Below are positions 14,085 to 30,758 of a DNA stretch of 32,012 nt, piece after piece. The number at the start of each line of letters is the position of its first letter. Positions within the stretch are counted from its first letter, which is position 1. A program made the translations under genes and the position numbers. The notes under the pieces were generated by a model. It had not been told where the DNA came from. It saw only the letters and a program-made list of their open reading frames with translations, and made no database searches. This stretch comes from a virus, in the IMG/VR virus record IMGVR_UViG_3300048033_000737, positions 1 to 32,012 of that record; one strand, given 5' to 3'.

Positions 14085-16043
14085 ATGGCAGCATATGCAA
14101 TTCAGTTCCGACGTGGTACAACTACTCAACACTCATCCTTTACAGGCCTTCTGGGCGAGGTTACAGTTGATACTGACAAGAAAACACTTGTCGTCCATGA
14201 CGGTTCTACAACTGGTGGTTTCCCACTTTCACGTGAAGGTGCGGCGGCAACAAGTTCGACAGGTTCATTTACATCAAATGTATCAGTCGGTGGCACATTA
14301 GCAGTAACGTCAACATCAACGTTTGGTGACGATGTAGGTGTAACTGGTGACTTGACAATGACAGGTCACATTCTACCAAGTGCGAACATTACATACGACT
14401 TAGGTTCAACGACACATATGTGGCGTGATATCTACGTTGGTCCAGGCTCATTATATGTTAATGGCAAAAAAGTTATCGAAGATGACTCAGGTTCAATTAG
14501 CATTACAACAGAAGCAAACGAAGACCTAAAAGTCAGTACAACTGGCACAGGTACTTTGAAATTCATTTCAGGTAATGGTATTAACTTTACTGGTGAATTA
14601 GGCGCAGTATCAGGTGATTTACAAATCGGTGACCACATCGATATGAATTCAAATCTAATCAAAGAACTGGCAACTCCAGTTTCTGGTACAGATGCGGCAA
14701 ACAAAAACTATGTTGACTCTGCGGCGGCAAGCGCAGTAACAGGCGGCGGTAACGCTGTTTCTGGTACAACTGGTGCGTTTTCTAGTGACGTTACAATCAC
14801 TGGTGACTTAACAGTTAACGGTACAACAACTTCAATCAATACAACACAGATTGATTTAGCAGACAACATTCTACTATTAAATTCAGATGCCACTGGTTCT
14901 GCCACAGCATCAGCAGGTCTTGAAGTTGAGCGTGGTGATGACTTGAATGTTCAGTTTTTATGGGACGAAGCAAATGACCGCTGGACAACAGGTGCAGAAG
15001 ACTTCTACACAACAGGTACAATTACTGGTGACTTAACTGGTGATGTAACTGGTACAGTTTCATCAATTGCTAACCATTCTACTGACGATTTGTCAGTAGG
15101 TACTACTAACAAGTACTTCACAAATGCATTAGCGGATGCCAGAATTGCTCTACAAGTTGGTTCAAACTTAGATTTGTCATCAATGACTACAGCAAATTTG
15201 ACAGAAGATTCATCTAACAAGTACTACACAGATACACGTGTAGGTTCTTATCTAACTACTAACTCATATGCAACAGAGTCATATGTAAATACAGCAGTAG
15301 CAGGCAAAGACCAATTATCAGAACTATCTGGTACAACAGATGACGTAACTGAAGGTTCAACTAACAAGTACTTCTCAAACACACTGGCACAAGGCGCAAT
15401 CTCAGTAAGTGGTGATTTGTCATACAACTCAGGTGTAGTATCTTTCACAGAAAGAACAGATGCAGAAGTAACTACACTAGCGAAAGCGGCTATCTCAGCA
15501 AGTGGTGATTTATCATACTCAAACGGTGTAGTATCTTTCACAGAAAGAACAGATGCAGAAGTAACTACACTAGCGAAAGCGGCTATCTCAGTAGGCGGCG
15601 ACTTGTCATACAATAATGGTGTTGTATCATATACAACTCCAGCAGAAGTTGACAACTACGTAGACTCGTTATCATTCTCGGGTGGTACTTTGACCGTAGG
15701 TCGTACAGGTGCATTATCAGACTTGACAGTTGATATCACAACAGCAACAACTATGAAACATACTCATGGTTATTCAGTTTCGGCAGATGATGAATCTGAT
15801 AATACTGGTTCAACACATTCAATTACTTGGTCGACTTTAAACGGTACAGATAAAATTGACTTCGGTTCAAACGCAGTAGCGTATGGTTCTGAAATTGATG
15901 TAGCACCGTTTGTGCAAGTATTCATCAACAGAATGGTTCTAAGACCGAATGAAGTAACAATTACTTCATCAGGTGTGACATTCGCCTCAGGCGTTGTAGC
16001 AGAAGATGATGAATTAGAAATCATGTATATGGACGAAAAATAA
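14085..16043 (+). CDS. Fibre-like structural protein 4, Mtd-type N-terminus
   Basis: 652 aa. The first 50 residues (IQFRRGTTTQHSSFTGLLGE, then VTVDTDKKTLVVHDGSTTGG) match the N-terminal domain seen in major tropism determinant-type and many marine phage fibre proteins, which I recall as a trimer-base module. Then come a TYDLGSSTHMW-like segment near 105-115, the LTVNGTTTSINTTQIDLADN module near 240-260, and LYYTD-like repeats. A tandem 31-residue repeat starts GVVSFTERTDAEVTTLAKAA. Unlike its four neighbours it lacks the ADLAERY C-terminal domain and ends in a beta module (VQVFINRMVLRPNEVTITSS). GGGAG ribosome site. Likely a host-contact fibre, inferred from the N-terminal domain. Confidence 0.78.
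   Translation: MAAYAIQFRRGTTTQHSSFTGLLGEVTVDTDKKTLVVHDGSTTGGFPLSREGAAATSSTGSFTSNVSVGGTLAVTSTSTFGDDVGVTGDLTMTGHILPSANITYDLGSTTHMWRDIYVGPGSLYVNGKKVIEDDSGSISITTEANEDLKVSTTGTGTLKFISGNGINFTGELGAVSGDLQIGDHIDMNSNLIKELATPVSGTDAANKNYVDSAAASAVTGGGNAVSGTTGAFSSDVTITGDLTVNGTTTSINTTQIDLADNILLLNSDATGSATASAGLEVERGDDLNVQFLWDEANDRWTTGAEDFYTTGTITGDLTGDVTGTVSSIANHSTDDLSVGTTNKYFTNALADARIALQVGSNLDLSSMTTANLTEDSSNKYYTDTRVGSYLTTNSYATESYVNTAVAGKDQLSELSGTTDDVTEGSTNKYFSNTLAQGAISVSGDLSYNSGVVSFTERTDAEVTTLAKAAISASGDLSYSNGVVSFTERTDAEVTTLAKAAISVGGDLSYNNGVVSYTTPAEVDNYVDSLSFSGGTLTVGRTGALSDLTVDITTATTMKHTHGYSVSADDESDNTGSTHSITWSTLNGTDKIDFGSNAVAYGSEIDVAPFVQVFINRMVLRPNEVTITSSGVTFASGVVAEDDELEIMYMDEK
15432..15590 (+). repeat. Tandem duplication, 93-bp period, in fibre 4
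   Basis: A 66-bp block at 15432-15497 recurs exactly at 15525-15590, 93 bp (31 codons) downstream. A third, diverged unit flanks it on each side. Absence of synonymous differences suggests a very recent in-frame duplication. Confidence 0.88.
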
Positions 16044-18683: not shown

Positions 18684-19109
18684 TTATAGTGATACTATAA
18701 TGTCCCTGACAATTTTGAGTTTGTTCTTTTTGAATAAAGTTCTACGTGTGCCGGGGTGAAGTGGCTTGGGTATATGGTGTCTATCTACCCATGTATACCC
18801 ACCTGATTCGTTATTAAGTTTTGGTATAAATTCTTTGCTGACAATGATAACAAATGAATAATAACTAAAATTTTTGTCACGTGAATGATATTGGTCTAAT
18901 GGATATATTCGTTCAATATCATTTATTCGGTCGATGTCTAATTCTTCTTCAATTTCTCTTAGTAATGCTTGTGCTATATTTTCTTTGTCTTCGACTTTCC
19001 CACCGAAGAAACCCCAATTTCTTGGTTGTGACCCTTCTTTTGTTCTTTGTTGTAGTAATAAACGTTTTGTATCTTTTGCTATGATACACGCCCCTGCCGC
19101 TCTAATCAT
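18684..19109 (-). CDS. Nudix hydrolase
   Basis: Nudix enzymes hydrolyse nucleoside diphosphates linked to another moiety, such as oxidised dNTPs, ADP-ribose, NAD or capped RNA ends. The 141-aa product has a Nudix box at residues 37-59: Gly37, Glu43 and the core Arg51-Glu52-Ile-Glu-Glu55-Glu56. The Gly normally next to last in the box is Asp58. The metal-binding glutamates are intact, so it is probably active. The N-terminus (MIRAAGACIIAKDTKRLLLQ) is the usual first beta strand pair, and NWGFFGGKVE resembles MutT/ADP-ribose-type members. Substrate cannot be told. It starts 9 bases after the gp15 stop, so it is in the same unit as neck genes gp14 and gp15. Confidence 0.9.
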   Translation of the reverse strand: MIRAAGACIIAKDTKRLLLQQRTKEGSQPRNWGFFGGKVEDKENIAQALLREIEEELDIDRINDIERIYPLDQYHSRDKNFSYYSFVIIVSKEFIPKLNNESGGYTWVDRHHIPKPLHPGTRRTLFKKNKLKIVRDIIVSL

Positions 19110-19118
19110 TTATCTGCC

Positions 19119-20501
19119 TTATGGTGTTGTTGTGACTAATTCTAGTCTCCAGTAGCCGCTTTCATAAATTCCTTGGAATGTATCTGACCATTCGCCCTTT
19201 TCAAATTTAAACTGTTGCATAGTATATGTGTTCGTTACATACGCACGTAGTGAGTACTCACTTGCATCAAAACTTACAACCCATTCGCTACCATTGTATT
19301 CAATGATATCATTTTTAGATATTTCAATACCAAAGTGACTGCTACTTGTAGCATCAGTCAATGATAAGTATCTTTGTCCTGTGGCGACATTAGGTATTCC
19401 ATTGAATCCCGGTCTTGCCGTAACAGCATCAATAATTCTATCTACTGAATTTACTGTATTTGTTGGCAATGTAGCAGTATCTACACTGAATGATAATAAC
19501 TCCGCGTCACTTGTTGCGGATATTGTACCAATGACATCAGCATTTAAGTCTTCTATTTCGCCATGATATTTAAGTCTTAATCTGGACACACCATCGTCTA
19601 GTGTCCCATAATTTTCTAATACTGTGTCCCATGTTATATTATTGTCGTAGTTGCCATTTGCTAATGGTTGCAATGTAACGTTTCCATTTACATCTTCTCC
19701 TACTTTCAATGCATAGTTTTCAGGTGTTACGATAACACTTGATTGTTTTTCTAAATCTCTAAAGAATTCAAACGCATCAGGGTCATAATCTAATGTATCT
19801 AAATCAGTATAATTGTATATATTATGAATAATATTTCTAATAACATTTTGTCTTGTCACCTGTGCTGGAGGGTTAATCCAAATAGGTATTTGAAAAGTCA
19901 ATGTTGCGATATCTATCTGGTCTTCGATTCCTGCAGGAATGCCCCGACTTGTCCATTGTATGTCAGTCATTTCTACAACTGTGATTGTTGTCCAATCTAC
20001 GGGATTATCGTTGTGTTGTATTTCTAATGCTGGATTAAATAATACTAACATCTGTTCGAGTAATTGAAGTTTTTGGTCTGTATTAGAAGTCCATACATCA
20101 ACCTGCATATTTAACAGATACGGTACTGGCATTAATCTTTTTACACTATATTTTTGTCCAGTTTCATTCGTATATTGTTTAGCAACCGGGTCATACTTTC
20201 TTTCGTTGACACTTACTGCATCATTAAAGAATGGTTCTTGTAAACGTTGCCTGTCTGGTATTAACCCTTGAACCCAACATGCAATAAATGGTGCAGAGTT
20301 AATAATATTTTCTGAATTCCCTTTTAGAATTGTTGAAGCCATACGAGACACATCTCCATATCTTGCTGGTACTCTGATATAATAGTCTGTAACGTTGTCG
20401 TTCATCTTCTTTCCTGTCTTTACAGAAAATCCACTAAACATTCTTACAAACTGTAATATATATCTTCTTATTTGTTCATCATAGAAATGTTCTTGGCTCA
20501 T
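19119..20501 (-). CDS. 15: Tail terminator / sheath stabiliser gp15, with C-terminal extension
   Basis: gp15 caps the finished tail tube and sheath and joins the tail to the neck. The first 240 residues match gp15: FYDEQIRRYILQFVRMFSGF at the N-terminus, a VPARYGD segment, PVPYLLNMQVDVWTSNTDQK near 125-145, EQMLVLFNPALEIQ near 149-162 and an IPIWINPPAQV segment near 210-220. The product is 460 aa against 272 in T4. The added C-terminal part includes a beta region and, from about residue 375, GQRYLSLTD...IIEYNGSEWVVSFD...QFKFEKGEWS...GYWRLEL. This resembles the Trp-containing modules of the sheath and gp14 here. It follows gp14 with a 1-base gap. Confidence 0.88.
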   Translation of the reverse strand: MSQEHFYDEQIRRYILQFVRMFSGFSVKTGKKMNDNVTDYYIRVPARYGDVSRMASTILKGNSENIINSAPFIACWVQGLIPDRQRLQEPFFNDAVSVNERKYDPVAKQYTNETGQKYSVKRLMPVPYLLNMQVDVWTSNTDQKLQLLEQMLVLFNPALEIQHNDNPVDWTTITVVEMTDIQWTSRGIPAGIEDQIDIATLTFQIPIWINPPAQVTRQNVIRNIIHNIYNYTDLDTLDYDPDAFEFFRDLEKQSSVIVTPENYALKVGEDVNGNVTLQPLANGNYDNNITWDTVLENYGTLDDGVSRLRLKYHGEIEDLNADVIGTISATSDAELLSFSVDTATLPTNTVNSVDRIIDAVTARPGFNGIPNVATGQRYLSLTDATSSSHFGIEISKNDIIEYNGSEWVVSFDASEYSLRAYVTNTYTMQQFKFEKGEWSDTFQGIYESGYWRLELVTTTP

Positions 20502-20502
20502 A

Positions 20503-21498
20503 TTAATCCACCTTCGGTCTTACCGCTTTAGATAAGTTTACTTTTGATTTTATTTGTGTACCATCGTCAAGTATTACACTACCATCATTATTGATAAATT
20601 TGTGGTGTAAGTGATGCCCAACTTCCCATGCACCGTCATCGTCTTCTATCTTATACCATTTGTTATCTCTATATTGAAATAGTCTACTTGGAGTATAATC
20701 AGTACGTAAGAAATACGAATCTTCAGCAGGACTATCCGGAAATTGTGTCCCGTTTGCTACTGTGGCATAGTCTATATCTTCAGGATGGTCACCTTGTGTT
20801 GCGTAAACCATATTATTTGTTCTGTAATCCCAGTATTTTCCTGGAACATTTTCTTGTGCTTCATCTACAATTGCATCAGTTATTTGAAGTTCTTTGTTGT
20901 ATGTTGACAAGATATTTTTCAAGTCATCTGCTTCTTCACCAGTACCAAGAATATCTGAGTACTCTTGTGTGTCCTGTAGTTGTTTACAACGAACACGCCA
21001 AATATGCGGCCACCAACCTGCATCAAATCCTTCAGCACCTTTAGTTGCTTCTTGTACGACCCAATATTGATTGACAGCATCACTATCTTCTTCTAGTAAC
21101 ATATCTTCTCTCATATGAGGCAGTTCGATTACATCACCAGTCATAATTTTACGACCTAGTTGATTGACCATCTCGTTCAAATGTAGAGTGAACACTTGTT
21201 GGTCATTACCTAAGAACATACCGAACTGTGATAATTCAAAGTCTTGGTCAGTTACAGTATATACACCTCTTAAATCGTAAATTTCAGTATCATACTTTCG
21301 GTCACGATTTTCCATAAACAATAAATCTTGTATTGCTGGTTGGGCAGGGTCATAATTAGGGTCAGTTTCGTCCTGAGACCCTAGATACTTGTGTATCAAT
21401 AATGAAGTTCCGCCATGGTCAAAGTGTGCTTTGACTGTCTTATCAGCGAATTTGTAATCATTGCCCTTACGAGGGTTCCATAAACTTAATCTTGGCAT
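20503..21498 (-). CDS. 14: Neck protein gp14-like
   Basis: Neck protein that with gp13 closes the filled head and binds the tail. The 331-aa product (T4 gp14 is 256 aa) has gp14-like order: an N-terminal segment, DTEIYDLRGVYTVTDQDFEL near residues 70-90, SQFGMFLGNDQQVFTLHLNE near 90-110, then a GDVIELPH segment and WVVQEATKG, followed by WRVRCKQLQDTQEYSDILGT. A C-terminal module near 247-285 (DSYFLRTDYTPSRLFQYRDN, then KWYKIED) resembles the decoration modules in gp15 and the sheath. The gene before gp15 in T4 order is gp14, which agrees. Sequence similarity is weaker than for gp15. A GATAAATA element on the minus strand is 25 bases upstream. Confidence 0.75.
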   Translation of the reverse strand: MPRLSLWNPRKGNDYKFADKTVKAHFDHGGTSLLIHKYLGSQDETDPNYDPAQPAIQDLLFMENRDRKYDTEIYDLRGVYTVTDQDFELSQFGMFLGNDQQVFTLHLNEMVNQLGRKIMTGDVIELPHMREDMLLEEDSDAVNQYWVVQEATKGAEGFDAGWWPHIWRVRCKQLQDTQEYSDILGTGEEADDLKNILSTYNKELQITDAIVDEAQENVPGKYWDYRTNNMVYATQGDHPEDIDYATVANGTQFPDSPAEDSYFLRTDYTPSRLFQYRDNKWYKIEDDDGAWEVGHHLHHKFINNDGSVILDDGTQIKSKVNLSKAVRPKVD

Positions 21499-21509
21499 AA
21501 AAATTTTCC

Positions 21510-21538
21510 TTGACTTATTACTGTATTTATCATATAAT
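21510..21538 (+). promoter_or_regulatory. Sigma70-type promoter for PhyH gene
   Basis: TTGACT (21510-21515), 17-base spacer, TATAAT (21533-21538): near-perfect bacterial housekeeping promoter, 28 bases before the ATG at 21567. The spacer contains the minus-strand late octamer. Confidence 0.8.
21524..21531 (-). promoter_or_regulatory. Late promoter GATAAATA for gp14-gp15-Nudix block (minus strand)
   Basis: TATTTATC on the plus strand reads GATAAATA on the minus strand, ending 25 bases before the gp14-like ATG. It lies inside the spacer of the opposing sigma70-type promoter. Confidence 0.65.
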
Positions 21539-21566
21539 AGTACTTATCTATATTTAAGGATTTAAA

Positions 21567-22250
21567 ATGAATGAAGGATATACAATAATACGTGGTATGT
21601 TGCCTAGTATGGTAACACATCAATTCAAATTATGGGCTATGAACCCAGAAAGATGTCATCGTGGGAACGCCGTAAACGGGAAATACTACAATAAACATCG
21701 AAAGGGAAGAGAATATGACTGTTGGTGGACAACTGCGCCTCCTGTCGAAATGTGGAGTCCTATAGTACAACAATTGCATACTTATATAAGTGCGCTATTC
21801 GAATCAGAAGATTGGGGCATTCATGGAGTAGATTGTATTACTACACGTCCTGGTAGTTCAAAGATTAGAGCGCACATTGATAGTCCTTATCGTTTTGATG
21901 AATATGCAACGTCAGAAGAAACATTGGGCGTCCAGGTAATTATACCCTTAGACCAGTTTACATTAGAAAATGGTGCAACATCATTTATACCTGGAAGTCA
22001 TGCAGAAATGATTCATTACAAAGATATTGAAGAATTTCAGGAAATATATGATGAACGAATCAGAAATGAAGGAGTACAATTTTTGTCTCAACCTGGTGAT
22101 GTATTGATGTATAATGGAAGAACGTTACACAGCACAATGCCAAATAATGCAGACACATTTCGTAGTGCATTGTTAATAAACGCTCTTTCCAAAGATATAA
22201 TAGACAAGACAAATTTGCTTGATAAAAACACAGATAGAAAAAAAACTTGA
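21567..22250 (+). CDS. PhyH-family Fe(II)/2-oxoglutarate dioxygenase
   Basis: Non-heme iron oxygenase of the phytanoyl-CoA dioxygenase superfamily, using 2-oxoglutarate and oxygen to hydroxylate a small molecule, protein or nucleic acid. In the 227-aa product the iron ligands are His103 and Asp105 (RAHIDSPY) and His188 (GRTLHSTMP), with Arg199 (DTFRSALLIN) for the 2-oxoglutarate carboxylate. A GATSFIPGSH segment near 136-145 is typical. Such genes are common in marine T4-like phages, where the substrate is not known. It has its own sigma70-type promoter, so it is probably expressed earlier than the structural genes around it. Confidence 0.9.
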   Translation: MNEGYTIIRGMLPSMVTHQFKLWAMNPERCHRGNAVNGKYYNKHRKGREYDCWWTTAPPVEMWSPIVQQLHTYISALFESEDWGIHGVDCITTRPGSSKIRAHIDSPYRFDEYATSEETLGVQVIIPLDQFTLENGATSFIPGSHAEMIHYKDIEEFQEIYDERIRNEGVQFLSQPGDVLMYNGRTLHSTMPNNADTFRSALLINALSKDIIDKTNLLDKNTDRKKT

Positions 22251-22275
22251 CAAATTGGTGCTTTTGTAGTTAAAT
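22247..22275 (+). promoter_or_regulatory. Sigma70-like promoter for 425-aa gene
   Basis: TTGACA (22247-22252), 17-base spacer, TTAAAT (22270-22275; 4 of 6 to TATAAT). Lies at the end of the PhyH gene, 46 bases before the next ATG. Confidence 0.5.
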
Positions 22276-22321
22276 ATAAACAGTAACGACTATATACTTT
22301 TAAAATAGGAGACGAAATCCA

Positions 22322-23599
22322 ATGGCGATTAAACTTGCTAAGAGAAAAAAATCAGCACAGCGTGGCTCAAAATATACAGATATATCGTATACTGGACCAG
22401 AACCTACATGGAAAGATGCAGACACATGGTCAGGCGAAAAATATTATAGAGAACGTAATCGCACAACTACGTTTTATGCATACTATTATAAATCAAAAGA
22501 TTTTGTTGTTTGGGCAGTTGACTGGATGAAAGAAAACGGTTATACTAAAGAACAAATAAAAGCATATAAGTCAGCGGAAGATTGGCGTACAAAAAGTACA
22601 ATAGCAAGTTATGCCAGAGCATTGATGAATGGTATGCCTGAAAATAATGAAGGTGTACCGGCATACTTAGATACATTGGCTGGGGTATCAGCAACATGTG
22701 TACGTGATGCAACTGATATAGTTAAAGAAGAAATCAATAAGATTATTGAAATCGGTGCAAAAATTTTAGAAGAAAAGAAAGAAGTAGAAGAAGTTGCAGT
22801 AAACAAATATAGACCATCTATTCAGCAGTTGTTACGTGACAAAGCGTTATCAATGACAGATGATATCGAAGAATTTATTGATAATTTTGATAACACTGCA
22901 AAAATGTTGAAAGAGTTTGACCCTTATAAACTACTAATAAGAGAGCAGGCAAAGGCAAATCATGCAAAGATTATTCTTAATCAGTATAAGCCAGTAGCAG
23001 ACGAACTAGATGAATTACTGAATCCTCCCAAGCGGATGAATGAAAGACAAAAAGATTTCTATGAACAACTTAAAGAAGGTTATGCTTACCTGACTAAGCC
23101 TGAAATTAAGGTAATGTATAAGATGTACCTATCTATTGTTGAAGCATGTGATATGATTATCGCTAAAGCAAAAGCAACAAGAACACCGCGTAAGAAGAAA
23201 CCAGTTAGTGCAGAAAAGCAAGTTGCAAAGTTTAAGTATATGAAGCAACATGTAGATACTAAGACAGTTAGTATGAATCCAGTAGAGATTGTAGGCGCAC
23301 AAGCAGTTCTTGTGTATAATACAAAGAACAGAAAACTAGGTATTTACTATGCTAGTAATATTGACCCTAAAGGATTAGGTAGAGAAGGCTCTGGACTTAG
23401 TGTCAAGGGAACAACTATTCAAGGCTTTGATGAAAAGAATAGTGTGCATAAAACATTGCGTAAACCAGAAGAACAACTTTCTAAGTTTAAGAAAATTACC
23501 AAACGTTCATTGCAGAAAGAATTCGGAGCAATTAATTCTGTAGAGACTAAAATGAACGGCCGTTTTAATGATAACAGTTTAATAATTAAGGTTTTCTGA
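22322..23599 (+). CDS. Unknown 425-aa basic protein, conserved-phage-type C-terminus
   Basis: Lys-rich protein with a basic N-terminus (MAIKLAKRKKSAQRGSKYTD), a Trp/Tyr-rich segment near 30-75, a helical middle (residues 120-310), a basic patch ATRTPRKKKPVSAEKQVAK near 286-304, and a compact beta C-terminal region near 330-425 (AVLVYNTKNRKLGIYY, then LSVKGTTIQGFDEKNSVHKT). I recall similar C-termini in unassigned proteins of other marine T4-like phages. No catalytic motif is evident, and nucleic-acid binding is only suggested by charge. AGGAG ribosome site. It has a sigma70-like promoter rather than a late octamer. Confidence 0.7.
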   Translation: MAIKLAKRKKSAQRGSKYTDISYTGPEPTWKDADTWSGEKYYRERNRTTTFYAYYYKSKDFVVWAVDWMKENGYTKEQIKAYKSAEDWRTKSTIASYARALMNGMPENNEGVPAYLDTLAGVSATCVRDATDIVKEEINKIIEIGAKILEEKKEVEEVAVNKYRPSIQQLLRDKALSMTDDIEEFIDNFDNTAKMLKEFDPYKLLIREQAKANHAKIILNQYKPVADELDELLNPPKRMNERQKDFYEQLKEGYAYLTKPEIKVMYKMYLSIVEACDMIIAKAKATRTPRKKKPVSAEKQVAKFKYMKQHVDTKTVSMNPVEIVGAQAVLVYNTKNRKLGIYYASNIDPKGLGREGSGLSVKGTTIQGFDEKNSVHKTLRKPEEQLSKFKKITKRSLQKEFGAINSVETKMNGRFNDNSLIIKVF

Positions 23600-23605
23600 T
23601 AAATA
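23598..23605 (+). promoter_or_regulatory. Late promoter GATAAATA
   Basis: Octamer starting next to the stop of the 425-aa gene, 48 bases before the ATG at 23654. Confidence 0.55.
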
Positions 23606-23653
23606 GTATTGTTGATGCACGACGGTGTATTGTTAATCTCAGGAGACATTATA

Positions 23654-24109
23654 ATGGCAAAACAGACATTCTATTTTTTAGAAACAACATTCCCTCAGGC
23701 GGTAGCAGATGCTAACACTGATAAGACTGGTTATGAGATTTCTCGTAGTTATTTGTGGGAATATATCCAAGAAACTGATTCAAAATATGCAAAAGCAATT
23801 GAGGGCTTTGTATTTGATGAGGTTAGACACTACCCTTGGAACGGTAACAAAGCAGGTGTTCGTATTAGATTTATGAGCGAAAGACATTTCACTCAATATA
23901 CTAAAATGGTTAAAGAATATAGAGCATGGGCAGAGGCAAATCGCGGCCTAGTATTTTCACATGAAGTTTCAGCAAACTTTGAATTGGGTGTTGAAGATAC
24001 GCCTTATAAAGCAGACGATGAAACAGAAATCGCCCCTACTTCATACGAACGCAGATTTATTCAATTGTTTGAAGATATCGCAGAAACACGTGGGTTTAAC
24101 GTATCGTAA
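23654..24109 (+). CDS. Unknown 151-aa protein
   Basis: Start set at the ATG at 23654, which has AGGAG 8 bases upstream. An earlier TTG/ATG in the frame overlaps the leader and has no ribosome site. The product begins MAKQTFYFLETTFPQAVADA, is soluble, mixed alpha/beta, and aromatic-rich, with an acidic stretch near residues 115-130. No motif or family was recognised. Its late octamer and position before gp13 suggest a virion or assembly role. A terminator-like hairpin follows. Confidence 0.65.
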   Translation: MAKQTFYFLETTFPQAVADANTDKTGYEISRSYLWEYIQETDSKYAKAIEGFVFDEVRHYPWNGNKAGVRIRFMSERHFTQYTKMVKEYRAWAEANRGLVFSHEVSANFELGVEDTPYKADDETEIAPTSYERRFIQLFEDIAETRGFNVS

Positions 24110-24137
24110 TATAAGTTGTTAAATTTAAATTAGTAGG

Positions 24138-24157
24138 CCCCTCTTTAAGAGGGGTTT
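24138..24157 (+). terminator. Terminator-like hairpin
   Basis: CCCCTCT (24138-24144) pairs with AGAGGGG (24148-24154) around TTA, followed by only three T's. Stable stem but short U-run. Confidence 0.6.
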
Positions 24158-24181
24158 ACCATATCCATAATTTGTTTTTAT

Positions 24182-24189
24182 GATAAATA
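24182..24189 (+). promoter_or_regulatory. Late promoter GATAAATA for gp13
   Basis: Octamer between the hairpin and the gp13 ATG, 20 bases before the start. Confidence 0.6.
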
Positions 24190-24209
24190 CAATATAATGG
24201 AGACTTTCA

Positions 24210-24962
24210 ATGGCAAAAAATAGAAATAAAATAAAGAATGATGTAATCAACCAAGTCAGACTATTACTAGGTGATGGTATGATTGATATCGAACTAGACC
24301 CAGAACACTATGACCTGGCTATTGATATTGCTTTATCTAAAATTAGACAACGTTCAGAAAATGCAGTAGAGGAAGATTTCTATACAATTGAACTACAAGA
24401 AGAACAAGATGAATACTCTTTACCAGAAGAAATCATTGAAGTAAAGAAGATTTGGAATCGTGCATTTGGCCATGGCATATCTGCTGGTGTAGATATGGAC
24501 CCATTTGAATTAGCATATGCTAACTCGTACTTCTTTATGAACAATCATCTAGGTGGTATTGCGACTTATGAACTATTTGCCGGATACAGAGAAACATTGA
24601 ATAAGATTGCCGCAACTGAAATTAACTTCATATGGAATCCTAGTACACATAAACTTAAACTTCTTAGAAAGTTAAGAGCAAAAGAAACTGTACTTCTACA
24701 TGTTCATTTAGAAAGACCTGATGATGTTCTTTTACAGGACAACTATCTTAAGTCTTGGTTACGTGATTATGCATTAGCATATTGTAAGAAAATGATTGGT
24801 GAAGCACGTTCTAAATTCTCTACATTACCGGGCGCACAGGGTGGTGTTTCGCTTAATGGCGATGTAATGAAACAAGAAGCAGATGCGGGTATTGAAAAAC
24901 TTGAGAACGAATTAAAATTGTACTTAGATGGCTCAGCACCATTAGGATTTATTATCGGTTAA
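24210..24962 (+). CDS. 13: Neck protein gp13
   Basis: Neck protein that with gp14 forms the head-to-tail connector. The 250-aa product shows the marine T4-like gp13 pattern: an N-terminal helical region (LDPEHYDLAIDIALSKIRQR near residues 29-48), DEYSLPEEIIEVKKIW near 69-84, a WLRDYALAYCKKMIGEARSK segment near 191-210, then the diagnostic LPGAQGGVSLNGDVMKQEA near 214-232 and a C-terminal FIIG. T4 gp13 is 309 aa. It lies on the opposite strand from gp14 and gp15, about 2.7 kb away, so the T4 order 13-14-15 is broken here. A GGAG ribosome site precedes the ATG. Confidence 0.85.
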   Translation: MAKNRNKIKNDVINQVRLLLGDGMIDIELDPEHYDLAIDIALSKIRQRSENAVEEDFYTIELQEEQDEYSLPEEIIEVKKIWNRAFGHGISAGVDMDPFELAYANSYFFMNNHLGGIATYELFAGYRETLNKIAATEINFIWNPSTHKLKLLRKLRAKETVLLHVHLERPDDVLLQDNYLKSWLRDYALAYCKKMIGEARSKFSTLPGAQGGVSLNGDVMKQEADAGIEKLENELKLYLDGSAPLGFIIG

Positions 24963-24965
24963 TAC

Positions 24966-24994
24966 TTGACACACTTGCATAACTATGCTATACT
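24966..24994 (+). promoter_or_regulatory. Sigma70-type promoter for dNMP kinase
   Basis: TTGACA (24966-24971), 17-base spacer, TATACT (24989-24994). It starts 4 bases after the gp13 stop and predicts transcription from about 25001. Confidence 0.75.
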
Positions 24995-25027
24995 TCTTTT
25001 AGTTAAGTTATGATAAGGAAATCTCAG

Positions 25028-25648
25028 ATGATTATTGGTATATGTGGACTCATTGGTTCTGGTAAAGGCACAGTTGCCGATATTTTAGTAGAAAAACATA
25101 ACTTCATAAAACTTTCCTTCGCAGACAAACTCAAAGACGGTGTTGCAACTGTATTCGGCTGGGACCGTTCTATGTTAGAAGGCGACACAGTAGAGAGTAG
25201 AAAATGGCGTGAACAAGTTGATACGTTTTGGACTAAAGAAACGGGTCGTGAGATTACTCCCAGATTAGTTCTACAAGAGTTTGGCACTGACTGTATGCGT
25301 AATGGTTTTTATGACGGCATTTGGGTTAGTCTAGTCAAACAAGAAATAATTAACAATCCTGAAAATAAGTATATCGTTCCTGATGTACGATTTGCAAATG
25401 AGATAAGCATCATTAAAGATTTAGATGGTGAAGTTTGGAATGTCAGACGTGGTGATTTACCTGAATGGTGGGGAACTGCAATCTTAGATAATGCAACAGA
25501 TTCAGACTTGATGAAAAGTAACTATCCCAATGTGCATCAAAGTGAATGGAGATGGATAGGAACTAATGATACTTTTAGTCATATTATCTATAACGATAGT
25601 GACCTACAGTCACTATATATCCAAGTTTCAAAGACGTTATCTATGTAG
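25028..25648 (+). CDS. 1: Deoxynucleoside monophosphate kinase, gp1-like
   Basis: Phosphorylates dNMPs to dNDPs for phage DNA synthesis (T4 gp1 is 241 aa). The 206-aa product starts MIIGICGLIGSGKGTVADIL, with the P-loop at residues 7-15 (Lys13), then LSFADKLKDGVATVFGWDRS, RLVLQEFGTDCMR and IVPDVRFANEISIIK segments typical of the family. I set the start at 25028, where AAGGAA lies 7 bases upstream. An in-frame ATG at 25010 would add six residues without a ribosome site. It stands between late tail genes but has its own sigma70-type promoter, consistent with earlier expression for nucleotide metabolism. Confidence 0.88.
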   Translation: MIIGICGLIGSGKGTVADILVEKHNFIKLSFADKLKDGVATVFGWDRSMLEGDTVESRKWREQVDTFWTKETGREITPRLVLQEFGTDCMRNGFYDGIWVSLVKQEIINNPENKYIVPDVRFANEISIIKDLDGEVWNVRRGDLPEWWGTAILDNATDSDLMKSNYPNVHQSEWRWIGTNDTFSHIIYNDSDLQSLYIQVSKTLSM

Positions 25649-25682
25649 TTAACTTCCAAACACCTGTTTTTTCGTAAAATAT

Positions 25683-25690
25683 GATAAATA
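25683..25690 (+). promoter_or_regulatory. Late promoter GATAAATA for sheath
   Basis: Octamer in the gap after dNMP kinase, 36 bases before the sheath ATG at 25727. Confidence 0.65.
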
Positions 25691-25726
25691 TTGTTAGCAA
25701 TTCATATTTTAAACAAGGAGAACAGA

Positions 25727-28405
25727 ATGCCTACATTAGTATCACCAGGTGTATCAGTAACAGTTGTAGATGAGTCACAATATGTGGCCGCAACACAAGG
25801 TACACTTCCATTATTAGTTATTGCTACGGCAAGTAACAAAGCAGACACTTCTGGTTCATCTATTGCTTCTGGCACAGTTCCAGCAAACGCTGGTGTGGCT
25901 TATCTAGTATCTTCACAAAGAGAATTAGTTGAAACTTTCGGAGAACCTAAGTTCTACGAAGTTGGCGGTTCAGTTGTGCAAGGCGCAGAGACAAGCGAAT
26001 ATGGTCTATTGGCTGCATATCAATATCTAGGTGTTTCAAACAACGCTTACGTTATTCGTGCAGATATCGACCTAGCAGAATTAGAAGCAACTACGACAGA
26101 ACCTGCAGGTGTAATCACAAACGGCTCATATTGGCACAACACGTCAAAATCTAAATGGGGACTATTCAAATGGGATGGTTCAGCATGGGTTGACGCAAAC
26201 GTATCAGTATTGACAGACGCACCAGGAACAGGAAACGTAGAGACATTAGACGGTTCAGGTTTCGCGGCACCATCAAACACATACGGTTCAGCAGGAGACT
26301 ACGCCGTAGTAGCATCAACTTCAAAAGTTGGTTACTATCAGAAAGTAGCAAGTGCATGGGTTTTATTAGGTAATGTAGGCGCAGGCGATTTTCAATTCTC
26401 TGCATTTGCACCAACAACACAGAAAGGTGGCGGCGCCTTAGTAGCAGGCGACACATATGCTCGTTTAACAGAACAAGGTGGCGGAATTGATATTGACATG
26501 AATGTTTATAATTCAACATCTGGTCTATTCACATCAGTTCAGGCTCCAACATATGCATCTGACGATGCGGCTGGTTCAGCATTAATTTCAGTCGGCGACA
26601 TATACACAAGATATGACGCTACACTTGGTTTCTTTGAACTAAGACGCCATACAGGCGCAACAAAAACTATGCTAACAACAGGAACTATTCCTGATACAGC
26701 ATCAATCACATCAACATTTACTGTAGAAAGTTCGTCATTTAATATGTCAGGCCAGTCTATTGACCAAGTAGTAACAGCATTACAAAGTGATGCAGGTTTG
26801 AATACAGCAAATGTTCAAATTGAAAAAGTTGGCACTAACAAAATACGCTTCACTAAAACTGACGGCAAAGAACTAAACATCGAGTTCTCTGTTGGTCAAA
26901 CAGCAATGGGCTTCGTAGATGCATCACAAAGTGCATCAGTTTGGGAAGCATTAGTATATGAAGCAAAATCAACACAAATCACTGGTACAATCGCAGAAGG
27001 AACTCTATGGTTCAACTCTGATTTAAAAGTTGAAATCTTAAAAAATACATGGAACGGCTCGGCACAAGAATGGGCAAAACATGCATGGTCAGAAGATACA
27101 GAAGGTCTTCTAGCAACTGAACTACAATTGCGTTCAGGTGAACCTACAAAGCGTAAAGACGGTACATCGGCTCTAGTAGCAGGTGATATTTGGGTAGACG
27201 GTGATGCTCTTCCTTACCCAACAGTATATCGTTGGTCAGGTTCAGCATGGGTTAAGTTAGACACAGCAGACCAATCATCAACTAACGGTTTATTATTTGG
27301 TAACTATTCAAATGATGCTCCTTATGATGCAAACGGTGCCGCTAACAGTCGTACAGTACATGCACAAGTTCCAAATGCAGAAACATCACCAGACGGTATG
27401 TTAATGGTTAACATGGACTACTCAACTTATAATGTCAAGCAATACACAGACGGTAAGTGGGTATGGGTTTCAGGTGTAAACACGGACGGTTCAGGTAAGT
27501 TCGGCACAGATGCACAGCGTCACATGGTTGTAGAAGCAATGCAATCAGCGATTACATCGAATGATGGTATTCGTGCAGAATCAACTTACTTCAATTTGAT
27601 TTCGGCTCCTGGCTACCATGAGTTAATGGATGAAATGATTACTCTTAATAAAGATAAGAAAGAAATCGCATTCATCGTAGGTGATTGCCCAATGAACTTG
27701 AAGTCAACTTCAACAGAAATGAAAGCATGGGCAGATTCAAACATGCCAGCAGAAACATATGCGGCAGTTTACTATCCACATGGTCTGTCAACTGACTTGA
27801 GTGGTAATGATGTTGTTATCCCTTCATCAGCAATTGCTTTAAGAACTATTGCTTTCTCTGACCAAGTATCATTCCCATGGTTTGCACCAGCAGGATTGAC
27901 ACGTGGTGTAGTTTCAAACGCATCACAAGTTGGTTATGTAAACTCTGAAAATGAGTTTGTAAGAACAAGACTAAGTGAAGGACAACGTGATACATTATAT
28001 ACAGCACGTATGAACCCAATTGCAGACTTCCCAAATCAGGGTTTAGTTGTATACGGTCAGAAGACTTCACAAGCATTTGCAAGTGCATTAGACAGAATCA
28101 ACGTAGCACGTCTAACGAACTACATGAGACATAATCTTGACCAACTTTCACGTGGTTTCTTATTCGAACAGAATGATAAAATTACACGTGATAACATGAG
28201 AGATGCAGTAGAACGTTTCTGTGGTGGTCTTGTTACAGATAGAGGTCTATATGACTTCTTAGTAGTCTGTGATGAGTCAAATAACACACCAGCACGTATT
28301 GATAGAAACGAATTATGGGTAGATGTTGCTATTCAACCAGTTAAAGCGGTTGAGTTTATCTACATCCCACTACGTATTCGTAACACTGGTGAATCACTAG
28401 CATAA
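25727..28405 (+). CDS. 18: Tail sheath protein gp18, with large decorated insertion
   Basis: Contractile sheath subunit. Start is the ATG at 25727, with AAGGAG 6 bases upstream. A frame-open TTG at 25691 is not credible. The 892-aa product (T4 gp18 is 659 aa) has the sheath N-terminus (PTLVSPGVSVTVVDESQYVA) and a strongly sheath-like C-terminal domain, including PWFAPAGLTRGVV, ARMNPIADFPNQGLVVYGQK, NVARLTNYMRHNLDQLSRGF and RDNMRDAVERFCGGLV. Between residues about 130 and 590 are roughly seven copies of a short beta module of the form GDIWVDG...YRWSGSAWVKLD, which probably project from the tail surface. A terminator like that after gp23 follows. Confidence 0.95.
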   Translation: MPTLVSPGVSVTVVDESQYVAATQGTLPLLVIATASNKADTSGSSIASGTVPANAGVAYLVSSQRELVETFGEPKFYEVGGSVVQGAETSEYGLLAAYQYLGVSNNAYVIRADIDLAELEATTTEPAGVITNGSYWHNTSKSKWGLFKWDGSAWVDANVSVLTDAPGTGNVETLDGSGFAAPSNTYGSAGDYAVVASTSKVGYYQKVASAWVLLGNVGAGDFQFSAFAPTTQKGGGALVAGDTYARLTEQGGGIDIDMNVYNSTSGLFTSVQAPTYASDDAAGSALISVGDIYTRYDATLGFFELRRHTGATKTMLTTGTIPDTASITSTFTVESSSFNMSGQSIDQVVTALQSDAGLNTANVQIEKVGTNKIRFTKTDGKELNIEFSVGQTAMGFVDASQSASVWEALVYEAKSTQITGTIAEGTLWFNSDLKVEILKNTWNGSAQEWAKHAWSEDTEGLLATELQLRSGEPTKRKDGTSALVAGDIWVDGDALPYPTVYRWSGSAWVKLDTADQSSTNGLLFGNYSNDAPYDANGAANSRTVHAQVPNAETSPDGMLMVNMDYSTYNVKQYTDGKWVWVSGVNTDGSGKFGTDAQRHMVVEAMQSAITSNDGIRAESTYFNLISAPGYHELMDEMITLNKDKKEIAFIVGDCPMNLKSTSTEMKAWADSNMPAETYAAVYYPHGLSTDLSGNDVVIPSSAIALRTIAFSDQVSFPWFAPAGLTRGVVSNASQVGYVNSENEFVRTRLSEGQRDTLYTARMNPIADFPNQGLVVYGQKTSQAFASALDRINVARLTNYMRHNLDQLSRGFLFEQNDKITRDNMRDAVERFCGGLVTDRGLYDFLVVCDESNNTPARIDRNELWVDVAIQPVKAVEFIYIPLRIRNTGESLA

Positions 28406-28536: not shown

Positions 28537-29136
28537 ATGGCAAGAACGTTAAACAACTTTGGTGTTCCACTAGACTCGGGCGAAAACGCTCAAGGTACTG
28601 GTATTTTACAGCCAAAACTAAATTACCGCTTCAGAGTACAAGTAGCGGGCTTTGGTGGGGTTTCACAGAACACCCAAGAATTTACAAGACAGGTAATGAA
28701 TGTTACTCGTCCAAAGGTCTCACATGAGTCAATTCCACTAGATTCATACAACTCACGTATGTATATGATGGGTAAACACACATGGGAACCAATTACAATT
28801 ACATTGCGTGATGATATCGCAAACAATCTAACTAAACTAGTTGGTCGTCAAGTACAATCACAACTAGACCACAGAAATCAAAGAGGTCCTTCAGCAGGTA
28901 CTAACTATAAGTTTTCGACATTGATTGAAATCTTAGATGGTAACTCAGGTAACCCAACTGAACAGTGGCAATTAGAAGGTTGCTTTATTACTAATGCAGA
29001 CTATTCACAAACAGATTATGCTGTTTCTGACCCAGTACAAATCATTTTGACACTACAATATGATAATGCTGTGTTTACAGATGCAGAAATTATGCCAGAC
29101 CAAGTATTTATTAACAACTCAAGTTCAGCAGGTTAA
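28537..29136 (+). CDS. 19: Tail tube protein gp19
   Basis: Forms the rigid inner tube through which DNA passes. The 199-aa product (T4 gp19 is 163 aa) shows the family layout: NYRFRVQVAGFG near residues 29-40, VTRPKVSHESIPLDSYNSRM near 59-78, a WEPITITLRDD segment near 86-96, WQLEGCFITNADYSQTDYAV near 148-167 and a closing ILTLQYDNAVF strand. It follows the sheath as in T4 and has its own late promoter, as fits a protein needed in many copies. A good ribosome site (ATAGGAGA) precedes the start. Confidence 0.94.
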   Translation: MARTLNNFGVPLDSGENAQGTGILQPKLNYRFRVQVAGFGGVSQNTQEFTRQVMNVTRPKVSHESIPLDSYNSRMYMMGKHTWEPITITLRDDIANNLTKLVGRQVQSQLDHRNQRGPSAGTNYKFSTLIEILDGNSGNPTEQWQLEGCFITNADYSQTDYAVSDPVQIILTLQYDNAVFTDAEIMPDQVFINNSSSAG

Positions 29137-29153
29137 TAAAGAGGTAGTCGGTT

Positions 29154-30758
29154 ATGGCAGGTGAAGACCGTCAAAGCATAGGTAATAGGAAGCGTATCCT
29201 GGCGGATAGCGCAGGTGCTAAACATAGATTTGGATTTGAACAACAAGGCCAAGCCAACGGTGTTGGCCGTTCAACCATTACTAAAGCGCCTAAAACTTCT
29301 GACCTATGGTTTGTCGAATTCAATCAAACAAGCAACGATAACGGTGTAAAACCACTAGATATATCAGCATTAGCAAGAGCAGTGTCTGGCATCTCAGTAG
29401 TGACAAGTACTATACCAGTCGACCAATATGGTAAGCGACTATATGTACCTACACGTGTAGACTTCCCAGAAGTAAGTATTACGATGTATGATACTGTTGA
29501 TGGTACAATGTTTGACATGGCGGCAAGAATGTATGAAAGATTTTTCAAAAATAATAGTCTTGCACCGGCAGATGGAATGCAAGAAGGGTATCTTTCTGCA
29601 CATAACCAATTATATGGTAGAAAAATGCCAGACAAAAGCACTGGTGAATACTATCATCAAAGTTTTGAAAGTATTAAAGTCAATCACTTTTTTGGTAATC
29701 TTGATTCATCACAAGAAAATGAAGGCTTTGTGCAACAAATACAACTGATTAATCCATTAGTTACAAATATAACATTTTCACCCAGTGATTATTCTTCATC
29801 AGAACCAAGAACAATAGAAATCACGGTACAGCCTGAAAATATAGTTTTTTATCCTAAAGATGATAATGTACAGTTTCCAAGTTGGATGTCACTTGGGCTA
29901 GACTACATGTTAGATGAACTTTCTCCAGTTACAACTAAAACTAAGGGAATGAATAAAGAAGAAGAACTATTTAATAAGTTACTAACAGAAATGCAGAACA
30001 CTTCTAATTTCCCAGACGAGGATGGAGTTAAGGAGCAAGATAAACTTGATGAGATTAGAAAACTTAATCAACTCAGAAAGTTGTATAATAAGACACAAGA
30101 GTTATCAGGTGACAGAGAAGCCGCAAAAGCATTGTTACAAGAGTTAAGAAATGATATCGGAACTATAAAAGCAAGTAACTTGATGTATGCAGAAGAAACT
30201 GAGCAGAATAGAGAAAGAACTAATAATAGTAAACAGGGAATGAGTATCGATTTAAGAGAAACAATGGCAGGAACTAGACCCTCTGCACAGGAAACAGGTA
30301 ATTCTTATAAATCGACTATATTAAATCCGAATGTACCAGATTTTGCAGGCCTAGGTAGTGTTGATGGTGGAAGTCAAACTTATAGCCCAGCAAACTTCGG
30401 TTCAGCAGTTACAAACGAATTAGTTAGTGCATTTTTTAATGGAAGAAGTGTTAATTTTAGTAATATAACTAGAGATATCGGTCAAGGAATACTTGGTAAT
30501 ACAGGTATCGGTAATTTAACATCTCTAGGAAAAACATCTCAAAGTAAATTTGGTATAGCAGGAGACCTCATTAGAGACGGTATAACAAATGGCCTTAGAC
30601 AAACAAATACTAATGGAATAAACACAACAACAACACCTGCGTTTTCAAGTGAAGACAGTCAGACATTAAATCAGACAAAATCATCAAATTCATCACCTGA
30701 CAAAACGATGCAACAGAATAAAATTAGACTGTTAAATCAACAAAGGAGCCCAAGATGA
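29154..30758 (+). CDS. Tube-like baseplate/tube-initiator protein with long coiled-coil tail
   Basis: 534 aa. Residues about 45-235 repeat the gp19 fold: LWFVEFNQ, then VVTSTIPVDQYGKRLYVPTR paralleling the gp19 IPLDSYNSRMYM segment, VSITMYD paralleling ITITLRD, and NITFSPSDYSSSEPRTIEIT paralleling the last gp19 strands. The remainder is a charged heptad-rich helix (residues 265-355) and a Gly/Asn/Ser-rich tail. T4 gp54 and gp48 are tube-fold baseplate proteins that start tube assembly, so this is a likely equivalent. A distinct second tube subunit is also possible. GAGG ribosome site. Its stop overlaps the next start by ATGA. Confidence 0.75.
   Translation: MAGEDRQSIGNRKRILADSAGAKHRFGFEQQGQANGVGRSTITKAPKTSDLWFVEFNQTSNDNGVKPLDISALARAVSGISVVTSTIPVDQYGKRLYVPTRVDFPEVSITMYDTVDGTMFDMAARMYERFFKNNSLAPADGMQEGYLSAHNQLYGRKMPDKSTGEYYHQSFESIKVNHFFGNLDSSQENEGFVQQIQLINPLVTNITFSPSDYSSSEPRTIEITVQPENIVFYPKDDNVQFPSWMSLGLDYMLDELSPVTTKTKGMNKEEELFNKLLTEMQNTSNFPDEDGVKEQDKLDEIRKLNQLRKLYNKTQELSGDREAAKALLQELRNDIGTIKASNLMYAEETEQNRERTNNSKQGMSIDLRETMAGTRPSAQETGNSYKSTILNPNVPDFAGLGSVDGGSQTYSPANFGSAVTNELVSAFFNGRSVNFSNITRDIGQGILGNTGIGNLTSLGKTSQSKFGIAGDLIRDGITNGLRQTNTNGINTTTTPAFSSEDSQTLNQTKSSNSSPDKTMQQNKIRLLNQQRSPR

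Follow-up and report, generated by a model that had tools for sequence, protein, structure and literature searches.

A short tryptophan-containing beta unit is repeated in the tail sheath insertion of a giant T4-related phage and shared with a gp14-like neck protein and probably also with gp15

Extra domains on the tail sheaths of large phages are already documented and have been proposed to serve adhesion, stability or the attachment of appendages (PMC9230969). In the type 3 multi-domain sheaths of Evseev et al. (2022, PMC9230969), a conserved core carries inserted, mostly beta-rich domains located away from the part that contacts the tube. Two other systems place small modules on several phage proteins: lactococcal 936 phages carry recognized carbohydrate-binding modules (CBMs) on different tail and neck proteins of one virion, with binding demonstrated by fusions to green fluorescent protein (PMC6669499), and promiscuous immunoglobulin (Ig)-like domains occur as add-on beta modules on various phage structural proteins, with weak contact to the cell surface as their suggested role (Fraser et al. 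2006, cited in PMC9230969 and PMC5259590). Here, we describe a short aromatic beta unit in three tail and neck proteins, the tail sheath, a gp14-like protein and gp15, encoded in the virus record IMGVR_UViG_3300048033_000737 (positions 1 to 32,012; hereafter the window, i.e. the whole stretch of 32,012 bases).

The sheath of the window has the same conserved core with an insertion as the type 3 sheaths, and one of its relatives, Agrobacterium phage Atu_ph07, is tabulated with five or more sheath domains (PMC9230969). It differs in that the insertion is built largely from one repeat; no repeat unit is described in the sections of that account consulted, and its main text mentions neither gp14, gp15 nor a repeat. 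The unit differs from the modules of the 936 phages in having no CBM match and in being known from sequences and models, and from Ig-like domains in its size of about 35 residues, its three strands and its lack of an Ig-like Pfam match. We found no earlier description of unit sharing among sheath, gp14 and gp15 in text searches of open-access papers, and none appears in the portions consulted of PMC9230969, PMC5259590, PMC7247149, PMC13282480, PMC6669499 and PMC12270204. The novelty lies in the repeat unit itself and in its presence in the sheath, the gp14-like protein and probably gp15, extra sheath domains as such being already known.

The record is probably a fragment of a phage genome and, judged from its sheath, gp14 and gp15 sequences, comes from a giant T4-related phage. 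By these three proteins, its closest named relatives are the PA5oct-like Pseudomonas phages, Agrobacterium phage Atu_ph07 and Sinorhizobium phage Phosso, together with Salicola phage SCTP-2, Vibrio phage 2.275.O and the RaK2/121Q/CBB group. The sheath gene (T4 gp18 family; 25727..28405, + strand) was assigned by Pfam (Phage_sheath_1C, PF17482, E 1.7e-12), by PHROG (tail sheath) and by the fold of its core. Its open reading frame (ORF; 25691-28405, +) begins with a TTG codon at 25691, and the ATG at 25727 (MPTLVSPG), which aligned with the starts of relatives, is the likely start.

The conserved core of the sheath comprises residues 13-128 and 601-904, separated by an insertion of about residues 129-600. 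We built an AlphaFold2 model on 45 aligned sequences (model numbering is the residue number minus 12), which has a mean predicted local distance difference test (pLDDT) of 84.9 and remains confident through the insertion: 46 of the 48 ten-residue blocks of model residues 111-590 lie between 84 and 95, the other two at 77 and 81. Because the core matches solved sheaths, namely a Klebsiella phage KP1 variant (9f4a; Z 28.6, root mean square deviation (rmsd) 2.9 over 329 residues) and pyocin R2 (3j9r; Z 26.6, 319 of 383 residues), the insertion can be considered extra to a minimal sheath. It showed no sequence match to T4 gp18 with hhalign, which aligned residues 69-124 with T4 gp18 40-83 and residues 676-902 with 425-650 (a third alignment was at chance level). 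This alignment of the flanks places the insertion opposite the T4 gp18 region that we take to be domains I and II.

Within this single insertion, we distinguished seven units of about 35 residues, U1 to U7 (residues 138-597), with limits drawn from the sequence and the model strands. Seven such units agree with the count of about seven tryptophan-containing copies that a sequence-only reading had claimed for residues 130-590. Every unit is predicted to have a strand-strand-strand core, the third strand of U1 being split, and additional short strands lie between units in the model. The first group consists of U1 (residues 138-172; 26102..26206, +; model strands 135-138, 146-149, 154-156 and 159-162), U2 (195-230; 26273..26380, +; 192-195, 200-207 and 210-213) and the degenerate U3 (247-292; 26429..26566, +; 243-246, 258-262 and 267-271) and U4 (297-335; 26579..26695, +; 292-296, 302-308 and 314-317). 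The second group consists of U5 (428-470; 26972..27100, +; 427-429, 436-442 and 447-454), U6 (482-526; 27134..27268, +; 488-491, 499-503 and 508-510) and U7 (562-597; 27374..27481, +; 559-562, 570-574 and 577-580). Between the two groups lies a distinct alpha/beta domain that is not a unit (336-425; 26696..26965, +; strands 327-333 and 336-343, helices 345-353 and 356-360, and strands 363-368, 372-377 and 383-389). It resembles the flagellin hook IN motif. The corresponding Pfam family, Flagellin_IN (PF07196), matches residues 198-232 of the Phosso sheath (E 1.8e-6, 28.4 bits for a cut-off of 22.7) and has no match in the window sheath.

Tryptophans anchor most of these units. In the window sheath, the pair of anchor tryptophans is present only in U1, U5 and U6; in U2 and U7 the first is missing, and U3 and U4 contain no tryptophan. 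Among the 45 aligned rows, W148 (U1), W440 and W461 (U5), W501 (U6) and W590 (U7) are invariant, W166 (U1) and W520 (U6) are kept in 44, and W223 (U2) is kept in 43, with a gap in the other two. Of the 15 tryptophans in the insertion, these eight, retained in 43-45 of the 45 rows, lie on strand 1 or 3 of a unit in the model and look like structural core residues, and the other seven vary.

The gp14-like neck protein (331 residues; 20503..21498, - strand) was assigned to the virion structural proteins of PHROG 11591 (E 2.4e-85). Its alignment (A4) matched T4 gp14 weakly with hhalign (P 0.018 over 71 columns), and the corresponding profile had no match in the PDB at E ≤ 10. Alignment A4 and a sliding profile scan delimit one unit at residues 250-288 (20635..20751, -), which confirms a unit read earlier near residues 247-285; profile A6, which includes the row of this protein, matched it at 20641-20739 (E 1.2e-13). 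The gp14-like gene directly adjoins gp15 in 4 of 8 named relatives (PA5oct, Vibrio 2.275.O, CBB and 121Q). The gp15 gene (19119..20501, -), assigned by Pfam and by its model, encodes a tail terminator or sheath stabilizer with a C-terminal extension: residues 5-232 match T4-gp15_tss (PF16724, E 3.3e-25) and the modeled N-terminal domain resembles T4 gp15 (4huh; Z 17.8, rmsd 3.2 over 169 aligned residues). The gp15 model has a mean pLDDT of 74.4 and a predicted template modeling score of 0.40, with blocks 371-450 at pLDDT 83-93, where two three-strand units are predicted: unit 1 (residues 372-413; 19263..19388, -; strands 377-380, 399-402 and 407-411; block pLDDT 87-93) and unit 2 (416-443; 19173..19256, -; strands 420-424, 430-434 and 437-440; 83-88). 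A unit had been suspected near residues 375-460 of gp15; two are now delimited there, with a weaker and shorter similarity than in gp14.

We assessed the kinship of the units by profile-profile comparison, in which 312 windows of 45 columns, slid along alignments of 45 sheath, 25 gp14 and 29 gp15 rows, were run with hhalign against eight queries made of units (five of the sheath, one of gp14 and two of gp15). The windows were sorted after the scan into unit and background (199 windows), with limits fixed by eye and by strands. The gp14 query scored 29.3 with U6, 27.1 with U1, 20.8 and 18.9 with the gp15 units, 18.2 with U2, 14.8 with U3 and 14.4 with U5, for a best background of 12.7 among the 199 windows (a score of 25.1 from an 8-column self-overlap was set aside); U7 (12.1) and U4 (11.0) remained under this value. 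Reciprocally, the U1 and U6 queries retrieved gp14 at 30.0 and 28.2 and both gp15 units at 18.9-20.3, over backgrounds of 17.7 and 18.0. The gp15 384-415 query gave 19.6 with gp14, 18.0 with U1 and 16.7 with U6 (best background without self-overlap, 11.7), and the gp15 416-456 query gave 21.3 with U6, 17.2 with U1 and 15.9 with gp14 (best background, 13.9).

Links within the sheath were uneven. With U6, U3 scored 35.2 and U4 23.4, and U7 (16.2) stayed under the background of 18.0; because of this profile link and of their strand pattern, U3 and U4 were counted as units despite having no tryptophan. U1 raised none of U7 (15.7), U2 (14.7), U4 (13.0) and U3 (12.9) above its background of 17.7. 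U5 scored 41.0 with U1, 27.2 with U6 and 13.1 with gp14, for a background of 12.4 that excludes two windows overlapping U5 or the edge of U1, and the gp15 units (10.1 and 9.2) were not raised above it. U2 scored 27.0 with U3, 16.7 with gp14 and 16.0 with U6, and the gp15 units (11.7 and 11.5) stayed under its background of 14.1. U7 scored 17.2 with U1, 15.7 with U6, 14.6 and 14.0 with gp15 and 12.8 with gp14, for a background of 11.0 without self-overlaps.

Transfer between proteins was also measured with hidden Markov models (HMMs) built with the tested protein left out and searched against 160 sheaths, 101 gp14s, 93 gp15s and 506 decoys made by shuffling or reversal. Built from four sheath units, an HMM matched 13 of the 101 gp14s at an independent E-value (i-E) ≤ 0.1 (best 5.4e-5), the gp14 of the window itself not being among those listed, and no decoy at i-E ≤ 1. 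When the columns of this profile were permuted 40 times, no permutation matched gp14 at i-E ≤ 0.1, for 13 matches in the true order. An HMM of sheath and gp14 units matched 7 of the 93 gp15s at i-E ≤ 0.1 (best 0.006), with no decoy at ≤ 0.1 and three at ≤ 1. In the other direction, 15 of the 160 sheaths had i-E ≤ 0.1 with the gp14 and gp15 units together (best 0.02; one reversed decoy reached 0.048) and one with the gp14 unit alone (0.0023), a partial sheath following at 0.058. From the transfer and the permutations, a single module shared by sheath and gp14 is well supported, and the gp15 units probably belong to it, with moderate support. The sequence-only reading had placed one module in all three proteins, a view that holds for sheath and gp14 and, given short alignments and one matching permutation in 40, moderately for gp15. 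On the question of one fold, which that reading had named as a check, the models cover the sheath and gp15 and show a similar three-strand pattern in both.

The unit extends through the phage group. A 34-position profile made from 25 unit segments gave 41 matches in eight whole phage records, 21 of them at E ≤ 1e-3. Of these 21, 17 fell in sheath or gp14, and the remaining 4 in ORFs annotated as hypothetical. The profile includes rows from Atu_ph07 and from 121Q, a close relative of CBB. Four records, PA5oct, Phosso, SCTP-2 and Vibrio 2.275.O, gave no rows and are not near those that did, and 10 of their 12 matches at this threshold were in sheath or gp14. The 121Q gp14 contains three separate matches (E 6e-8 or better, its own rows being in the profile), and three matches were also obtained in Stenotrophomonas phage CM1 (best 5.8e-5). 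With a combined HMM, training sequences included, at least one unit was found at i-E ≤ 0.1 in 159 of 160 sheaths, 100 of 101 gp14s and 82 of 93 gp15s. By contrast with this spread, the T4 genome had no match to the unit profile at E ≤ 1, the XacN1 sheath had no unit by the combined HMM at i-E ≤ 0.1, and the XacN1 gp15, of only 269 residues, lacks the C-terminal part, which agrees with the earlier description of the unit as an add-on.

The unit had also been called transferable, and similar stretches were indeed found in further structural or unannotated ORFs of the fetched loci (best i-E 7e-4 with the sheath-unit HMM). The best of these, in an ORF of locus L369 (GDLWW...YYNDGTSVQWV), has the aromatic order of the sheath units; such stretches differ in lying in other proteins, singly or scattered, rather than in a repeat array in the sheath. 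The unit may therefore be a general brick of phage proteins. Several other candidate occurrences were discarded. The gp15 of locus L285 carries an inserted gp14-type unit that is visible by eye and that the combined HMM did not report at i-E 0.1, and a C-terminal unit in the XacN1 gp14 was likewise seen by eye only (best HMM i-E 2.9). PHROG 16122, which matches the window gp15 at residues 370-440 (2.1e-6), was tried as proof of a domain common to gp14 and gp15 and given little weight because it found gp15 in 2 of 8 phage records and also matched in 1 of 14 control genomes (Caulobacter); a third match, in XacN1, was located elsewhere than gp15. The VIA lists named no relative for either the sheath insertion or the C-terminal part of gp15, an absence that is uninformative.

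Divergence is faster in the insertion than in the core. Among 29 close relatives, identity to the window was 60.7% in the insertion versus 88.8% and 83.4% in the N- and C-terminal core, and among 15 distant relatives 31.6% versus 56.8% and 57.9%. It is nevertheless under purifying selection: the ratio of non-synonymous to synonymous substitution rates (dN/dS) was 0.11 in the units in one comparison and 0.08 in a second, independent one, for C-terminal core values of 0.09 and 0.04 (loci L003, L004 and L006 gave the same or nearly the same counts, which in effect leaves two). A near-identical sheath at locus L005 (3073-5784, compared with 25691-28402 of the window) shows 53 differences, and 40 of these fall in the bins covering residues 300-419, where U4 and the alpha/beta domain lie. 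The synonymous rate between these two sheaths was 0.47 at inter-unit and 0.31 at unit positions of the insertion versus 0.15 in the C-terminal core, which suggests a block exchange at residues 300-419.

Some gp14 relatives bear other accessory domains. In four of them (L270:6427-7725, L251:6405-7739, L310:6509-8128 and L302:6196-7542, all - strand), a CBM5/12-like insert occurs at two different positions, outside the unit; in a Pfam scan of nine proteins, four gp14s matched CBM_5_12 at E 8.7e-6, 2.7e-5, 0.0021 and 0.18, all under the cut-off (the best with 26.1 bits for a threshold of 26.2). An HMM made from four such inserts found CBM5/12-like inserts in 5 of 101 gp14s. We discarded CBM5/12 as the identity of the unit, Pfam giving no match and this HMM being marginal on gp15 (best i-E 0.1, for 0.036 with another ORF and 0.24 with the best shuffled decoy). 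At its N-terminus, the XacN1 gp14 homolog (L371:1170-2822, -) bears an F5/8 type C domain that scores 29.3 bits for a cut-off of 28.2, and a further gp14 relative (L314:5433-6677, -) has a different insert with ITGxTSG-like stretches and no Pfam match.

We propose, with a probability of roughly 45%, that the units are one reused brick forming an outer, accessory contact surface for weak multivalent adhesion. The brick would consist of a three-stranded beta core of about 35 residues held by a few invariant aromatics, tryptophans on strands 1 and 3 and an aromatic residue on strand 2. It would have been multiplied into a sheath lobe outside the core, at the site of T4 gp18 domains I and II, and placed also ahead of the conserved gp14 tail and at the gp15 C-terminus, so that the lobes would form an outer layer on sheath, terminator and neck and touch cell-surface or environmental material, the core tryptophans serving the fold and exposed loops making the contacts. 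The extra-core location, the fast divergence and the sugar-binding-type domains on some gp14 relatives favor such an outer contact layer. The sequence-only reading had suggested a surface decoration along the tail, possibly for binding glycans or particles; an exposed position is likely from the extra-core location and from the published placement of additional sheath domains away from the tube (PMC9230969), and glycan binding would have indirect support in the CBM5/12-like or F5/8 type C domains of some gp14 relatives. Several results weigh against adhesion. No CBM_5_12, other CBM, lectin or Ig family matched the window's sheath, gp14 or gp15 in Pfam at E ≤ 1; segments with U1-U2, U6, the gp14 unit and the gp15 units had no CBM_5_12 match at E ≤ 5 and no CBM, lectin or Ig match, and Ig-like families matched none of the 45 sheaths at E ≤ 0.01. 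Glyco_hydro_32C (E 0.029, gp15 segment) and CBM96 (E 0.12, 121Q gp14) appeared only below the cut-off. The conserved tryptophans, since they look structural, are no evidence of sugar binding, and the dN/dS of 0.08-0.11 in the units gives no sign of positive, diversifying selection. Moreover, in T4 the C-terminal region of gp14 contacts gp15 (PMC12270204), and the gp14 and gp15 units could thus be buried at an interface. Low dN/dS, structural tryptophans and this contact instead favor a structural cement, in which the units would pack on neighboring sheath subunits, bridge sheath, gp15 and gp14, and stiffen a large tail with no adhesive job, a role consistent with the compact, confidently folded lobe and discussed for additional domains by Evseev et al., citing phage 812 (PMC9230969). 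We regard this as possible and less likely than adhesion, as divergence is much faster in the insertion than in the core, some relatives have added carbohydrate-binding-type domains to gp14, and no units were detected in the T4 genome or the XacN1 sheath.

Alternatively, short aromatic beta hairpins could have arisen independently in phage structural proteins, where they are common, and this is most plausible for gp15. Whole-protein hhalign was weak (P 0.03 for sheath-gp14, 0.21 for sheath-gp15 and 0.13 for gp14-gp15), the gp14-unit HMM also matched an apparently unrelated ORF (i-E 0.031), and similar stretches occur in assorted ORFs. NEQ068, the top match in the PDB (E 0.0026, 17 columns), was rejected as a solved structure holding the unit; it has no evident phage link and is probably convergent, a short Tyr-Trp hairpin converging easily. 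For gp15, the alignments span 20-24 columns in most gp14 rows and about 10-12 in sheath rows, mainly the tryptophan hairpin; the sheath-unit HMM matched 5 of 93 gp15s at i-E ≤ 0.1 (best 0.044); the eight phage records gave a single gp15 match at E ≤ 1 (0.125); and one of the 40 permutations matched gp15 (two matches, best 12.0 bits), the true order giving six with a lower best score of 10.8 bits. Against convergence, queries from all three proteins select the same segments among the 312 windows, and the sheath-to-gp14 transfer was clean with decoys and permutations, so that independent origin seems unlikely. Still less probable, in our view, is a docking platform on which sheath and neck lobes would hold hair-like tail fibers. 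CBB, whose sheath belongs to the window's family, bears hairs along its tail (PMC5259590), and phAPEC6, an isolate of the 121Q species according to its authors, has filaments in rings at three sheath levels, one just under the collar (PMC7247149); three levels for 25 sheath rings would imply that the sheath protein alone cannot position the hairs. An extension of the adhesive reading, which we consider rather doubtful, is that one stackable tryptophan brick forms a continuous low-affinity, multivalent adhesive coat from neck to baseplate throughout this giant T4-related group and evolves by brick swapping. If true, a virion with a phAPEC6-like tail would display perhaps a thousand bricks (7 units × 6 subunits × about 25 rings).

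The unit puts a name to stretches of the sheath, the gp14-like protein and gp15 that otherwise lack annotation. As the extra part of the sheath is largely one repeated brick, it also offers a defined piece to express, delete and image, which makes the purpose of the extra sheath domains testable.

Other genes of the window were noted in passing. A NUDIX/MutT-like gene (18684-19109, -), assigned by eye and position, adjoins gp15, and a gene annotated NUDIX or MutT also lies beside gp15 in PA5oct, CBB, 121Q and Vibrio phage 2.275.O. A putative fiber protein (14085-16043, +) matches Mtd_N (Major tropism determinant N-terminal; E 3.5e-16). Downstream of the sheath gene, an adjacent pair of tail tube proteins (28537-30758, +; 199 and 534 residues) each match PHROG 4542.

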